From Terrimonas ginsenosidimutans (GTDB lineage: Bacteria > Bacteroidota > Bacteroidia > Chitinophagales > Chitinophagaceae): a DNA stretch of 64,000 nucleotides. Below the pieces are notes generated by a model that was not told where the DNA came from, ran no database searches, and was given only the letters and a program-made list of their open reading frames with translations. Location of the stretch: assembly GCF_022012415.1 (NCBI RefSeq), contig NZ_JAKLTR010000009.1, positions 1 to 64,000 of the forward strand. The letters run 5' to 3'. This document shows, piece by piece, positions 32,347 to 41,242 of the stretch. Numbering within the stretch: the stretch's first letter is position 1; each line of letters begins with the position of its first letter. The translations under genes and the position numbers were made by a program.

Positions 32347-33561
32347 ATGAAGAGACTGATCATTTTCCTATGCCTGCTACCAGCACTCACGCGCGCTCAA
32401 AAGGCCTCGAACACGATTCCTCAGACAAAACCTATAACAGACACTTCTGTTCAGACAGACCTGGTGGACGTAGCAAAGAATGTTTTTAATATCAACCCGA
32501 AAAAGATCCAGCAGAAAAGGGATCGCAAAATAGATTTCTCGCTTTTGCCATTTGGTAATGCTCCCGGCGGTACGGGCCGCGCACTGATCACCAGCACAAC
32601 CGCTGGCGTCTATCTGGGCCCCAGGAGAACCACCAATAAGTCAAACGCAACATTTGCCCCCTACTGGAATTTCAAAGGCCGCTTCGGCCTCCCATTGCGG
32701 TCCAGCATCTGGCTGCCCAATAATACCTGGAATATACAGGGGGATATCCGCTTCCTCGTTTACCCGCAAAATACATGGGGAACCGGCAGTTCAACCAATA
32801 ACGACCGTAAGATCATGGTCGATTATACCTATATCCGCATGTACCAGGCTGCTTTAAAGCAGATCCGTCCACACTTCTATGCCGGATTTGGCTACAACCT
32901 GGATCACCGGTTCAATATCAGGACCAGTGATTCCGTTTACAACCTTAAAAGCTTTACCGGGTATGATTTCGGCACCAACAGCAGTTCATTATCTTCCGGC
33001 TTCACCTTCCAGGCTTTCTATGACACCCGGCACAACCTGATCAATCCCCTGCCCGGTTTCTATGCAAATTTCATTTACCGCGTAAACCCTAAAATGCTCG
33101 GTAATAAAGAGCCCTGGCATTCTGTTTATGTTGACGTAAGAAAATACATCTCCCTTAACCGGCGTCGCCCATCACAGCAAAATACGCTCGCCTTCTGGTC
33201 TTACTTCTGGAAAGTGCTCAATGATGGAGCACCCTACCTGGACCTGCCCAGCACCGGCTGGGATCCCTATAACCGTTCCGCAAGGGGAATCGACCAGAAC
33301 AGATACAGGGGAAAAACGCTTTTATATTTCGAAGGTGAATACAGAAGGGATATTACCAGAAACGGCCTGTTCGGGTTTGCCGTGTTCGCAAATACAAACA
33401 CTGTCAGCGGCAATAACTCGTTCCTCCGCGACTGGCACCCAGCAGTAGGTGCCGGCCTCCGCATCAAATCCAGCAAAGTATCAGGAACCAACATCGCGAT
33501 CGACTATGGATTCAGCAAAGGTTTCAGGGCGATCATGGTGAATATTTCTGAAGCATTCTAG
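32347..33561 (+). CDS. Omp85/surface-antigen-like outer-membrane barrel
   Basis: A 404-residue outer-membrane protein with a signal peptide (LIIFLCLLPALTRAQ). After a 60-residue linker it becomes a beta-barrel of the bacterial surface antigen (D15/Omp85 C-terminal) type: RALITSTTAGVYLGPR, IWLPNNTWNIQGDIRFLVYP, FTFQAFYDTRHNLINPLPGFY (the D-T-R ... P-x-x-G-x-Y pattern typical of the family), YFEGEYRRDI and the closing SGTNIAIDYGFSKGF. It has no POTRA domains, so it is not BamA or TamA. The terminal residue is Phe, as required for insertion. Partner and cargo are unknown. Confidence 0.82.
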   Translation: MKRLIIFLCLLPALTRAQKASNTIPQTKPITDTSVQTDLVDVAKNVFNINPKKIQQKRDRKIDFSLLPFGNAPGGTGRALITSTTAGVYLGPRRTTNKSNATFAPYWNFKGRFGLPLRSSIWLPNNTWNIQGDIRFLVYPQNTWGTGSSTNNDRKIMVDYTYIRMYQAALKQIRPHFYAGFGYNLDHRFNIRTSDSVYNLKSFTGYDFGTNSSSLSSGFTFQAFYDTRHNLINPLPGFYANFIYRVNPKMLGNKEPWHSVYVDVRKYISLNRRRPSQQNTLAFWSYFWKVLNDGAPYLDLPSTGWDPYNRSARGIDQNRYRGKTLLYFEGEYRRDITRNGLFGFAVFANTNTVSGNNSFLRDWHPAVGAGLRIKSSKVSGTNIAIDYGFSKGFRAIMVNISEAF

Positions 33562-38656: not shown

Positions 38657-41242
38657 ATGATGCGCACAGTGCGAAGCAGTTGCTGCTTCCTGCCATACCT
38701 CTTTTGCTTTGCCACAATATTGTTTGCGCAACCACTGTGCGCGCAGCAATCCGCTGACAGTATAACCGTGACCATAGCCCCGGATTATGACAACGTATCC
38801 GGACTGCACCGGTTCTTCCTCGGCGAAAATTATCGTAAGCTCTGGGCTACACCCGTCACCGTAAGGATCATACACCTCAACCGCGAAAAAGGCGGACTGC
38901 AGATCGAACAGGAAGGTGGCGGACAACAAACCCGGTCACTCCGGTTACGCGATCATTCGGGAAAAGAATGGGTTTTGCGAAGCGTTCAGAAATATCCTGA
39001 ACGGCAACTTCCCCCAAGATTGAAAGAGACCATCGCACGTGATATTCTCCGTGACCAGGTAGCCACCGCCAACCCATTCGCTGCGATCACCGTTCCGCCG
39101 CTTGCGGAAGCACTCGGAATCCCCCACTCCAACCCCGAGATCGTTTACGTAGCTACAGACACTGCTCTCGGAAACTATAATGAGACATTTGCCGGAAAAA
39201 TATTCCTGCTCGAAGAAAGGCAGCCCGCCGGATCCGGTAAAACAGACAATACAGCCCAACTACAGAAAAAACTCCTGGAAGACAATGATGTAAGCGTAGA
39301 TCAGCGTCTTGTACTGCGGGCGCGACTGCTCGATATGTTGCTGGGCGACTGGGACCGACATGAAGATCAATGGAGATGGGAAAAGATAAAGGAAGGTAAG
39401 AATACAGTGTATGCCCCGGTGCCGCGTGATCGTGACCAGGTATACTATCAGACCTCCGGCGTATTCCCCTGGATCGTCTCCCATCAGTGGCTGAAATCAA
39501 AATTTCAACCCTATCGCGAACAGATCAGGGACATCAAAGGCTGGAACTTCAATGCACGCTATTTTGACCGTTACTTCCTGACATCACTGGATGAGTCAGA
39601 CTGGAAGAACGAGATCAAACTGGTACAACAGACATTATCAGACAGCTTGATCACAAAGGCGATCCGGCGTATGCCTCCCTCCATTTACCAGATCGCCGGT
39701 GAAGAAACGATCAGGATCATGATCGCCCGCAGAAACAACCTCCTCAGATCCGCATTGGAATATTATCGTTTCCTCTCTGTTTATGTGGATATTACAGCTT
39801 CCGGCAAACGCGAACACTTTGACATAAAACAGGACGGTGAGCAGATCAGCGTCAGCATCTACAAACAAAAAAAAGACAGCACCCGGAATGACCGGATCTT
39901 CCATCGCAATTTTGATCCGGCAATTACAAAAGAGATCAGGCTCTATGGTTTTGACGGAGAAGATGAGTTCTATGTACATGCACCGATCACTTCCCCCATC
40001 CGTATCCGTATGATCGGAGGCGGAGGCGAAGACCGCTTCATTATAGACAGCAACACCAATCACCGGAAAAAACTTTACATCTATGACCGGTCAGATAAGC
40101 TGAACGGGTTCCCCTCCCGCAAACTCGCAAAGATCATCACCGGCACAGACAGCAGCATCAACAGCTTTGAGCCGAACAGTTTCCAGTATGACCGGTTTGA
40201 GCCCGTCACACTGGCACATTATAATACCGATATCGGCATCAGCCTGATCCTCGGCGCAGCACTTACCAGACACGGATTCCGCCGAACACCGTACGCGTAC
40301 AAACATCAGCTGCTGATGGATTATTCATTCGCCAGAAGATCCTTCCTGTTTACCTACATGGCCGACTACAAAAAAGCATTCGGCAAAAATGATCTGAATA
40401 TCAATATCGTTTCACACGGTCCGAATAATGTCAGCAACTTCTTTGGCATTGGCAACGAAAGCCTGTTTGAAAATAAAGGAGATAAAAAGATCCTGTATTA
40501 CCGCAACCGCTACGACTATGTGGAGGCAGATATCCGGATCAGCAGGACGCTCCGTCACTTCACCATCAACGGCGGTCTTGCGGGGCAGTATTACACCAGC
40601 AAGGCGGTCAACAATGAGTTTAAATACCTGAAGGAATTCGACCAGCAGCATCCGGATGCAAATGTGTTCTCTTCAGGATTCTATCTTGGCGCAACAGGTG
40701 CGGCGGAACTGGATACAAGGCAGAACAAAACATTCCCTTCACAAGGCATTCACTGGTATACCAGGTTAACAGCAATGCAACAATGGGGAAAGCAGAAAGA
40801 CAGTTACGGACAGATCAGTTCTGAATTCAGTTTCTATCTCAATCCCGACAAACACGCTACGCTGATATTTGCCAATAGAACCGGCGCCGGCACAACGGTC
40901 GGGGATCCCGCCTATTTCCAGTTATTGAAACTTGGTGGCCCGCAAACACTGCGCGGCTTTCATACCTGGAGATTTTCAGGTAAGACAATGCTCTATAATA
41001 ACTTCGAACTAAGGCTGAAGCTATTCAACTTCAACTCCTACCTTCTCCCCGGCTCCGTGGGCGTGATCGGATTTGATGATATCGGAAGGATATGGCAACC
41101 GGGAGAGCATTCCACGGAATGGCATAATGGATATGGAGCGGGCTTATATGTTAATCCCGTAGAGTTGGTGCTGATACAATTCTCAAAAGGCTTCTCGAAG
41201 GAAGGATCGATCAATTACCTGACGATCGGATACAGGTTTTAA
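38657..41242 (+). CDS. Kinase-like domain fused to an outer-membrane beta-barrel
   Basis: An 861-residue exported protein. Signal peptide 1-29 (LFAQPLCAQ). Residues ~85-270 hold a domain whose signature is unlike any ordinary barrel: EWVLRSVQKYP (105-115), a helical region, then RLLDMLLGDWDRHEDQWRW (222-241) and YAPVPRDRDQVYY (252-264). The D-R-H motif 20 residues before an R-D-R-D motif is the arrangement seen in the HipA/Fam20/CotH atypical kinase folds (G-N-x-D-R-H, then an Asp-containing metal loop). Residues ~270-520 are a beta-rich linker with Gly-rich GEDEFYVHAP and GGGGEDRFI motifs; from ~530 to 861 it is a barrel of the BamA/TamA type (YKHQLLMDYSF, FPSQGIHWYTRL, GGPQTLRGFHTWRFSG, IQFSKGFSKEGSINYLTIGYRF ending in Phe). 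ATG-ATG start. The family label for barrel plus this N-terminal domain is known to me; kinase function is inference. Confidence 0.8.
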   Translation: MMRTVRSSCCFLPYLFCFATILFAQPLCAQQSADSITVTIAPDYDNVSGLHRFFLGENYRKLWATPVTVRIIHLNREKGGLQIEQEGGGQQTRSLRLRDHSGKEWVLRSVQKYPERQLPPRLKETIARDILRDQVATANPFAAITVPPLAEALGIPHSNPEIVYVATDTALGNYNETFAGKIFLLEERQPAGSGKTDNTAQLQKKLLEDNDVSVDQRLVLRARLLDMLLGDWDRHEDQWRWEKIKEGKNTVYAPVPRDRDQVYYQTSGVFPWIVSHQWLKSKFQPYREQIRDIKGWNFNARYFDRYFLTSLDESDWKNEIKLVQQTLSDSLITKAIRRMPPSIYQIAGEETIRIMIARRNNLLRSALEYYRFLSVYVDITASGKREHFDIKQDGEQISVSIYKQKKDSTRNDRIFHRNFDPAITKEIRLYGFDGEDEFYVHAPITSPIRIRMIGGGGEDRFIIDSNTNHRKKLYIYDRSDKLNGFPSRKLAKIITGTDSSINSFEPNSFQYDRFEPVTLAHYNTDIGISLILGAALTRHGFRRTPYAYKHQLLMDYSFARRSFLFTYMADYKKAFGKNDLNINIVSHGPNNVSNFFGIGNESLFENKGDKKILYYRNRYDYVEADIRISRTLRHFTINGGLAGQYYTSKAVNNEFKYLKEFDQQHPDANVFSSGFYLGATGAAELDTRQNKTFPSQGIHWYTRLTAMQQWGKQKDSYGQISSEFSFYLNPDKHATLIFANRTGAGTTVGDPAYFQLLKLGGPQTLRGFHTWRFSGKTMLYNNFELRLKLFNFNSYLLPGSVGVIGFDDIGRIWQPGEHSTEWHNGYGAGLYVNPVELVLIQFSKGFSKEGSINYLTIGYRF

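Follow-up and report, generated by a model that had tools for sequence, protein, structure and literature searches.

Omp85-type outer-membrane barrels can carry an enzyme domain at their N terminus. In the patatin-Omp85 (type Vd) protein PlpD, the passenger was long thought to be exported to the cell surface and was then found to stay periplasmic, according to the portion of the source available to us (PMC11116518). A survey of Omp85 proteins defined a "Metallo" subfamily by the presence of PF00149, termed there a metalloprotease domain, and the accessible part of its text contains no word beginning with "kinase" (Heinz & Lithgow 2014, PMC4104836). Here we describe a gene of Terrimonas ginsenosidimutans (genome of 7.1 Mb in 64 contigs) whose product joins a kinase-like domain to such a barrel. 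It lies at positions 38657 to 41242 on the forward strand of the 64,000-nucleotide stretch of contig NZ_JAKLTR010000009.1 that we analyzed (the window). On balance we think it probable, if only slightly so, that the protein belongs with atypical kinases (phosphotransferases) of the HipA/CtkA/Fam20C/PI4KII kind, is anchored in the outer membrane, and acts in the periplasm, and that its phosphoesterase-fused relatives form a phosphate switch tied to phosphate or polyphosphate status. The computed support for this reading consists of the barrel itself, a kinase fold in the predicted structure, conservation of the active-site residues, a modular association with a calcineurin-like phosphoesterase, and gene order that links relatives (the long form described below and, in one genome, the short form too) to polyphosphate kinase 1 (PPK1).

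The open reading frame (ORF) noted in a first-pass annotation of the window is present; it encodes 861 amino acids and represents the short form, P0001, in which a kinase-like domain precedes an Omp85 barrel. A signal peptide region (residues 1 to 30; 38657..38746), read from the translation as a hydrophobic stretch followed by AQPLCAQQ, is succeeded by a domain of kinase topology (residues ∼31 to 375; 38747..39781), a beta-rich linker in the place of POTRA domains (residues 376 to 512; 39782..40192), and a 16-strand BamA-type barrel (residues 513 to 861; 40193..41239). The C-terminal barrel that the annotation had proposed is real. PF01103, the only Pfam match in the protein, covers residues 611 to 832 at 26.9 bits (cutoff, 24), while the NCBIfam model Omp85_fam stayed below its cutoff (101.4 versus 200). 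A full-length model (831 amino acids; predicted local distance difference test score [pLDDT], 90.4; predicted template-modeling score [pTM], 0.83) has 16 long strands from residue 513 onward and a nearly all-beta linker with almost no helix, and its best 50 PDB matches are Omp85-type barrels (BamA, TamA, and Toc75 among them), nearly all of them BamA. POTRA models gave no match in the protein at an E value of ≤10. Among relatives, a hydrophobic N-terminal segment was found in 116 of the 129 phosphoesterase-less ORFs with a sufficient N terminus, 8 further ones being too short. The 107 phosphoesterase-bearing forms described below divided into 38 hydrophobic, 41 weak, and 28 too short; for these the test says little because the model used already spans the signal region.

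The domain between the signal peptide and the linker is predicted to fold as a kinase. An AlphaFold2 model of residues 31 to 385, built from an alignment of 57 rows over the same residues (A1), reached a mean pLDDT of 90.4 and a pTM of 0.90. Three N-lobe strands with a Gly-rich turn come first, then a helix bearing D133 and a strand and hinge with E186; there follow two helices, the loop from D231 to W239, a beta hairpin, D258-R259-D260, and a helical C-lobe, which is the kinase order. Searching the PDB with this model using Foldseek returned 640 matches up to an E value of 10. Eleven of these lay at or below 0.001, namely, two chains of Rio2, six of CtkA, PI4KII-alpha, MSMEG_1954, and one bacterial kinase complex, and the E values were 1.7e-5 for Rio2, 1.8e-5 for CtkA, 1.4e-4 for PI4KII, 1.4e-3 for Fam20C, and 5.1e-3 for HipA. 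The best 50 of the 640 matches were all kinases or kinase-fold proteins, judged in most cases by title; MSMEG_1954, Rv3197, YihE, TvaE, and the RIO kinases within pre-40S complexes, on whose fold the titles are silent, we take to be kinase-fold. Also among the matches is PDB 5yh2, a Fam20C/Fam20A kinase-pseudokinase complex. A domain model that lacked a kinase fold had been named beforehand as an outcome that would refute the kinase assignment of the first-pass annotation; what we found was kinase topology together with kinase-type structural matches.

The residues expected of an active site can be placed along this model. Residues 104 to 114 read EWVLRSVQKYP, and the two longer strings that the annotation had quoted also stand in the translation (RLLDMLLGDWDRHEDQWRW, residues 223 to 241; YAPVPRDRDQVYY, residues 252 to 264). 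Its numbering of R108, K112, D258, and D260 was correct; its D-R-H triplet exists, but as D233-R234-H235 rather than at 231 to 233, D231 being a separate, nearly invariant Asp. The Gly-rich loop and second strand (GGGQQTRSLRL, residues 87 to 97; 38915..38947) were assigned from conservation and the model strands. At the third strand (model residues 74 to 79, protein residues 104 to 109) stands the basic pair R108 and K112 (38978..38992), which the annotation had marked for checking: R108 seemingly occupies the Lys position, K112 lies four residues on, and both are nearly invariant. D133 (39053..39055) sits on the alpha-C-like helix after this strand (model residues 96 to 105) and E186 (39212..39214) at the end of the hinge-side strand (model residues 151 to 157), both also marked by conservation. 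The putative catalytic loop DWDRHEDQW (D231 to W239; 39347..39373) and the D258-R259-D260 motif (39428..39436), in the metal-Asp position after the beta hairpin, were recognized by their conservation.

We measured that conservation in two sets, in both of which the rows are related and unweighted. The smaller set of 119 homologues derives from 122 ORFs scoring above 250 bits, with one duplicate and the window's own copy removed, and includes both pieces of one split gene (L051) as well as a small number of ORFs truncated at the end of a locus. Conservation in it goes far beyond what chance would give: D226, D231, D233, D258, D260, and E186 are present in 119 of 119 sequences, R108, K112, and D133 in 117 of 118 each, H235 in 117 of 119, and Q238 in 116 of 119, with Asn in the remaining 3. 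The larger set holds 240 sequences with more than 250 residues covered, out of 244 ORFs in 257 loci (4 shorter ORFs dropped). The Gly-rich loop is well kept there (G87, 227; G88, 230; G89, 204; Q91, 222), as are R108 (230), K112 (235), the D133 position (Asp in 233, Glu in 5), E186 (236), the catalytic loop (D231, 238; D233, 231; R234, 235; H235, 225; Q238, 229, with Asn in 8; W239, 237), and D258 and D260 (233 and 231). The exact ten-residue active-site set occurs in 214 of the 240, or 218 if Asn is allowed for Q238. The other outcome that the annotation had named as refuting, homologues in which the D-R-H motif and the second Asp vary, did not occur either, D233, H235, D258, and D260 being conserved. 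Because its active-site residues are conserved across Bacteroidota, the domain looks like an enzyme and not like a pseudokinase.

Kinship to known kinases is faint at the level of sequence. Over the kinase-like domain of P0001 there was no significant match in Pfam, in NCBIfam, or among PDB sequences; phmmer found no relative of the N-terminal half in the PDB up to an E value of 10, and the Pfam models HipA_C, HipA_2, and Fam20C gave no match in the protein at ≤10. When the A1 profile was run against 177,635 PDB sequences, CtkA came out best (E = 0.32, not significant alone), with DRH aligned on DRH. A further profile, A3 (89 rows of <62% identity and ≥300 residues that keep R108, K112, D233, D258, and D260, degenerate rows being excluded), again placed CtkA first, in an alignment that spans the catalytic loop and the greater part of the C-lobe (E = 0.044, likewise not significant alone); the HMMER alignment puts the Asp of CtkA between D258 and D260. 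In a PADLOC scan of six barrel-less relatives, all six matched PDC-M03A models (best E values from 2.2e-5 to 6.7e-3) over stretches that take in the catalytic loop, which is residues 255 to 257 in four anchored proteins. Two proteins with PF07804 (HipA_C) also match PDC-M03A, L128 (Pfam E = 2.7e-12) at 6.8e-30 and L119 at 1.4e-6, and for this reason we regard PDC-M03A as HipA-like; Pfam, run on six such proteins, found a HipA match in L128 only. The kinship proposed in the first-pass annotation therefore stands in part. HipA and Fam20C are backed by Foldseek, and HipA also by the HipA-like PADLOC model in the barrel-less relatives, but CotH is not, having appeared neither in the Pfam scans nor among the best 50 of the 640 Foldseek matches. 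A role in phage defense was considered and set aside: the two proteins of this genome lack a PADLOC match, and we read the PDC-M03A matches of barrel-less relatives as a HipA-like kinase signal.

The second of these proteins, P0002, is a long paralogue encoded on contig C14 (1200 amino acids, 37% identical), in which a PF00149 phosphoesterase precedes the same domain and barrel. Among the 244 ORFs, 123 have the kinase-barrel form, 107 the phosphoesterase-kinase-barrel form, 8 a kinase-like domain with the beta linker and no barrel, and 6 the kinase-like domain alone, although some long forms cut at a locus edge are included among the short ones and L051, listed with the six, is a split gene. 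The copy concerned, from Pontibacter ramchanderi (L051:4905-7490), is broken by an in-frame stop that falls beyond the kinase-like domain. The other five, which do have this domain alone (L159, L160, L161, L162, and L245), are ∼425 amino acids long and have a hydrophobic N-terminal anchor that looks uncleaved, and all five end in CFxC plus one residue. A lipobox-like motif is present in five of the eight proteins with kinase-like domain and linker, most clearly in L165 and L167. In the two genomes of genus g116 that encode these two, the kinase-linker protein, a phosphoesterase, and a POTRA-less barrel are three adjacent genes on the same strand (phosphoesterase and barrel assigned by Pfam in L165, the phosphoesterase by the family profile in L167). 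Across a tree of the barrel, the phosphoesterase label changed at least 13 times, a figure inflated by edge-cut long forms. The phosphoesterase has kept its motif residues (of 105 rows with more than 250 residues, out of 113: D31, 98; D62, 103; N104, 99; H105, 96; H205, 105; H286, 105; H288, 99), in a spacing, GDxG / GDNxY / GNHD / HH / GHxH, that to us recalls purple acid phosphatases.

In its domain content, the long form agrees with the "Metallo" Omp85 subfamily as described in the accessible part of the survey (PMC4104836). P0002, compared on domain content only, likewise has PF00149 before an Omp85 barrel, whereas P0001 differs in lacking PF00149; a POTRA-less barrel is common to the "Metallo" and "noNterm" subfamilies and to the family described here. 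Pfam names PF00149 a calcineurin-like phosphoesterase. The family is widespread: an even sampling of 296 genomes across the phylum turned up the kinase-like domain in 112, and the whole protein is matched in 24 of 59 relatives. Its nearest named homologues come from Chitinophaga, Mucilaginibacter, Pontibacter, Dyadobacter, and kin, and among the best 80 of 583 confirmed homologue matches, our sole view of other phyla, the named titles were all from Bacteroidota.

A minority of relatives have a decayed kinase site, L247 and L249 to L255 being clear examples; L168, L169, L201 (second copy), and L256 are more divergent or truncated, and one or a few residues have been lost in L027, L080, L163, L164, L203, L206, and L246. 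In L168, L169, L201, and L250 to L256 the barrel is retained, and because it outlasts the decayed site there it may have a role of its own. Joint loss of the N-lobe pair (R108 and K112) and the C-lobe Asp triad was scored on a barrel tree built with FastTree (227 rows, of which 6 were unscored, leaving 221). Both were lost in 6 of the 221 rows, and one without the other in 5 (Fisher P = 1.5e-8). With correction for kinship, six independent pairs gave a mean of 3.9 concordant and 0 discordant (P = 0.125, not significant). Joint loss is what a single active site would lead one to expect, and the pattern is suggestive of one without proving it. In two genomes of one genus (perhaps Hymenobacter) we also observed adjacent divergent kinase-linker genes (L164:3436-5091 with L164:5162-6775, and L163:3129-8148), where DWSRR replaces DWDRH in one copy, which stands beside DWDRH copies. 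Such neighbors could possibly form a pseudokinase-kinase pair by analogy with Fam20A and Fam20C.

Gene neighborhoods were surveyed in 173 loci of at least 7 kb, with neighbor families defined by clustering and one representative of each annotated. Recurrent neighbors were an HD-domain protein with a PycTM-like membrane part (68 loci), a ∼780-amino-acid protein whose GAF match is weak at best (65 loci; PF13185 at E = 0.005 in L007, none in L010), SdiA-regulated/phytase-like propeller proteins (42 loci; two clusters, one of them below the Pfam cutoff), PPK1 (21 loci), a cyclase-TPR protein (18 loci), a PAP2 phosphatase (13 loci), and a SixA-like protein (6 loci); at least one of eight neighbor clusters was found in 104 of the 173. 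One HD-domain protein (L173:1020-2198) carries a Pycsar-effector-like membrane domain, PF18967, at 91.8 bits, and one nucleotide cyclase-TPR protein (L214:1052-3007) gave weak PycC matches. We viewed five Chitinophagaceae-type genomes, all carriers of the long form (that of T. ginsenosidimutans, G000, with G001, G007, G016, and G023); G000 and G023 were known beforehand to have PPK1 nearby. In all five, the genes for the HD-PycTM protein, PPK1, an SdiA-like propeller, the phosphoesterase-kinase-barrel protein, and the GAF-like protein stand side by side, on one strand in four genomes and split between strands in G007. The run in T. ginsenosidimutans (contig C14, L258:2474-12729) lies on one strand with gaps of 62, −1, 28, and 6 bases, and in G016 a short kinase-barrel gene is the sixth of the run, 24 bases after the GAF-like gene. 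From such spacing, we infer that the gene runs around the long form are operons.

The presence of PPK1 alone says little, because 273 of the 296 phylum genomes have it. Both kinase-domain and PPK1 matches were listed for 54 genomes. The nearest PPK1 was no more than 20 kb away in 24 of these and no more than 6 kb away in 8, and in 22 the two were on different contigs only; at roughly one PPK1 per 4 Mb, fewer than 1 of the 54 would be expected to have it within 20 kb. Of the 24 genomes with a near PPK1, nine are spread over seven families, and the rest are discussed below. In Flavobacterium johnsoniae, phosphate starvation induces a PPK-like protein and a lipoprotein with propeller-type InterPro entries; in the accessible part of that report, no tie of the induced proteins to the PPK1 gene run could be made and no Omp85 protein is named (PMC8115612). 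Around the window gene itself, a START-domain protein (PF01852; 37795..38454, forward strand) lies upstream, linked to the gene within the genus only. START and UPF0047 were rejected as family-wide partners, since among ORFs of at least 150 amino acids START adjoins the gene in G000 and G001 only; its relative in G007 is on another contig, and G016 gave no match. Some 5 kb upstream of the kinase-barrel gene, at 32347 to 33558, is a gene for a 404-amino-acid protein that has a subthreshold Omp85 match (20.4 bits; cutoff, 24), no N-terminal domain, and weak similarity to the barrels of the family.

We envisage that the Omp85 barrel, by way of the beta-rich linker, would keep the enzyme on the periplasmic side of the outer membrane. 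R108 and K112 would grip the phosphates of the donor, D233 would serve as catalytic base, and D258 and D260, with Q238, would hold the metal. Phosphate could then pass to a periplasmic or outer-membrane target, be it a protein, a glycan, or a lipid. The phosphoesterase that is fused to the domain in the long form may reverse or balance the transfer, giving a phosphorylation switch tied to phosphate or polyphosphate status. The donor might be ATP that reaches the periplasm or might be polyphosphate.

Several observations weigh against this kinase reading. The classical beta-3 Lys is replaced by R108 and the metal-binding Asn by Q238; HipA-type kinases have that Asn five residues after the catalytic Asp, as do the 14 HipA ORFs that we examined, and it is this position that Q238 takes. 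The structural matches are modest, with template-modeling (TM) scores by query length of 0.34 to 0.45 in the top nine Foldseek rows and 0.25 in the tenth (TM score by target up to 0.54 and root mean square deviations of 7.8 to 9.5 Å in the top nine), so the domain would be a remote and not a close member of the kinase fold. Neither barrel form of this genome, P0001 or P0002, matched any PADLOC model, PDC-M03A included (0 of 2), or any HipA model in Pfam. Aligned by hhalign with the 14 HipA ORFs, the domain profile gave E values of 0.2 and 0.084, no better than the barrel control at 0.072 (reversed profile, 0.72; phosphoesterase profile, 0.6). The neighbors of the window gene are UPF0047, START, and MarR genes, none from the PPK1 run; 8 of the 54 genomes have PPK1 on the same contig but more than 80 kb off, and 15 of the 24 with a near PPK1 belong to one family (f42, at 11 to 16 kb). 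Finally, ATP is not known to be present in the periplasm at useful levels.

These points leave room for other readings. Kinase folds can carry different chemistry, SelO and SidJ transferring AMP, glutamate, or another group, and it is unlikely, if well worth entertaining, that our family does the same or phosphorylates a small metabolite. The divergent details (R108 for Lys, Q238 for Asn, and the extra conserved D226, D231, and E186) speak for this, as does the lack of any sequence tie to known kinases when the window protein is taken alone in Pfam and phmmer searches. On the other hand, D-x-D-R-H followed by Asp is the layout of HipA, CtkA, and Fam20C (for CtkA also seen in the alignment), and a fused or colocated phosphoesterase with conserved motif residues fits phosphate transfer. 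A little less credible still is a pseudokinase or ligand sensor, which would bind a phosphate-rich ligand and gate or scaffold the barrel without catalysis. The first-pass annotation had raised a pseudokinase as an option, and it suits minority lineages: the active-site residues are lost and the barrel kept in L168, L169, L201, L246, L247, and L249 to L256, and gene sets in two genomes put a DWSRR copy beside DWDRH copies. For the window protein it is disfavored, given that the complete residue set is kept in 214 to 218 of the 240 sequences and that the N-lobe pair and Asp triad tend to be lost together, by the Fisher test if not by that on independent pairs. We regard as doubtful, though with some appeal, a kinase-fold enzyme driven by polyphosphate, in which PPK1-made polyphosphate in the periplasm would be spent on envelope targets and the phosphoesterase and propeller protein would reset the system; we know of no earlier protein-kinase-fold enzyme that runs on polyphosphate.

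Two further alternatives carry little weight. That the barrel exports the domain in a type Vd-like manner, so that the kinase acts extracellularly, seems quite improbable: PlpD was long believed to act so, but its passenger remains periplasmic in the available portion of the account (PMC11116518), and there are barrel-less relatives with an N-terminal membrane anchor or a lipobox. We attach next to no probability to the kinase fold being a prediction artifact and the domain an unrelated accessory of an outer-membrane assembly protein. TM scores below 0.5 by query length and the negative hhalign result are what such an artifact might produce, but the model has a pLDDT of 90, kinase-type matches run throughout the best 50 of 640, the best sequence match is, independently, CtkA at the same loop, and barrel-less relatives match a HipA-like model. 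The kinase interpretation holds at the level of the predicted fold, its topology, and the conserved site.

In our reading, these proteins form a family of kinase-like enzymes that is spread over the phylum, is exported, and combines in modular fashion with a phosphoesterase and an Omp85 anchor; in several lineages, gene order links it to the synthesis of polyphosphate. The periplasm is generally regarded as devoid of ATP, and for this reason little is understood of how proteins are phosphorylated outside the cytoplasm in Gram-negative bacteria. Here a domain with a predicted kinase fold and a conserved site, in many cases joined to a phosphoesterase, would sit at the outer membrane, and several lineages share gene runs in which it is encoded beside the enzyme that makes polyphosphate. 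The family is therefore a concrete, purifiable candidate for learning what powers phosphotransfer in the envelope, and if it were driven by polyphosphate, it would represent a way to signal by phosphorylation where ATP is absent. The family also adds a kinase-like part to an apparently known Omp85 subfamily that has been filed, in the accessible part of the survey, as a metalloprotease (PMC4104836). Neither kinase nor phosphatase is mentioned in the available portions of two recent papers on the Bacteroidota BAM complex and TamL (PMC12611786, PMC12045153), and a literature search yielded no kinase-like Omp85 protein and no link of PPK to Omp85 among the matches listed, with subscription papers and preprints mostly outside its coverage.

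Set beside known systems, the window protein resembles PlpD in that an enzyme domain precedes the Omp85 barrel; in PlpD this domain is kept periplasmic as far as the accessible portion of the source describes (PMC11116518). The window protein differs in having a kinase-like domain instead of a patatin and a beta-rich linker in place of POTRA. With CtkA, HipA, PI4KII, and Fam20C (PDB 3akj/3akk/3akl, 4pu4, 4hnd, and 5yh0/4kqa), the window domain shares a two-lobed kinase topology, as predicted, and its alignment with CtkA shows a D-R-H loop in common, followed by a region with Asp and a C-lobe made of helices. In contrast to these four, the window protein would be exported and tethered to a barrel. 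It also has R108 and K112 where usual kinases have a single beta-3 Lys. HipA has Asn where the window protein has Q238, and HipA and Fam20C have one Asp where it has DRD. Fam20C and Fam20A are a secretory kinase and pseudokinase. They place a kinase fold outside the cytosol, as we suppose for the window family, and the active and possibly inactive gene sets in two genomes may parallel them; the window family differs in being bacterial and sited at the outer membrane, with a partner relation that is a guess from gene order.

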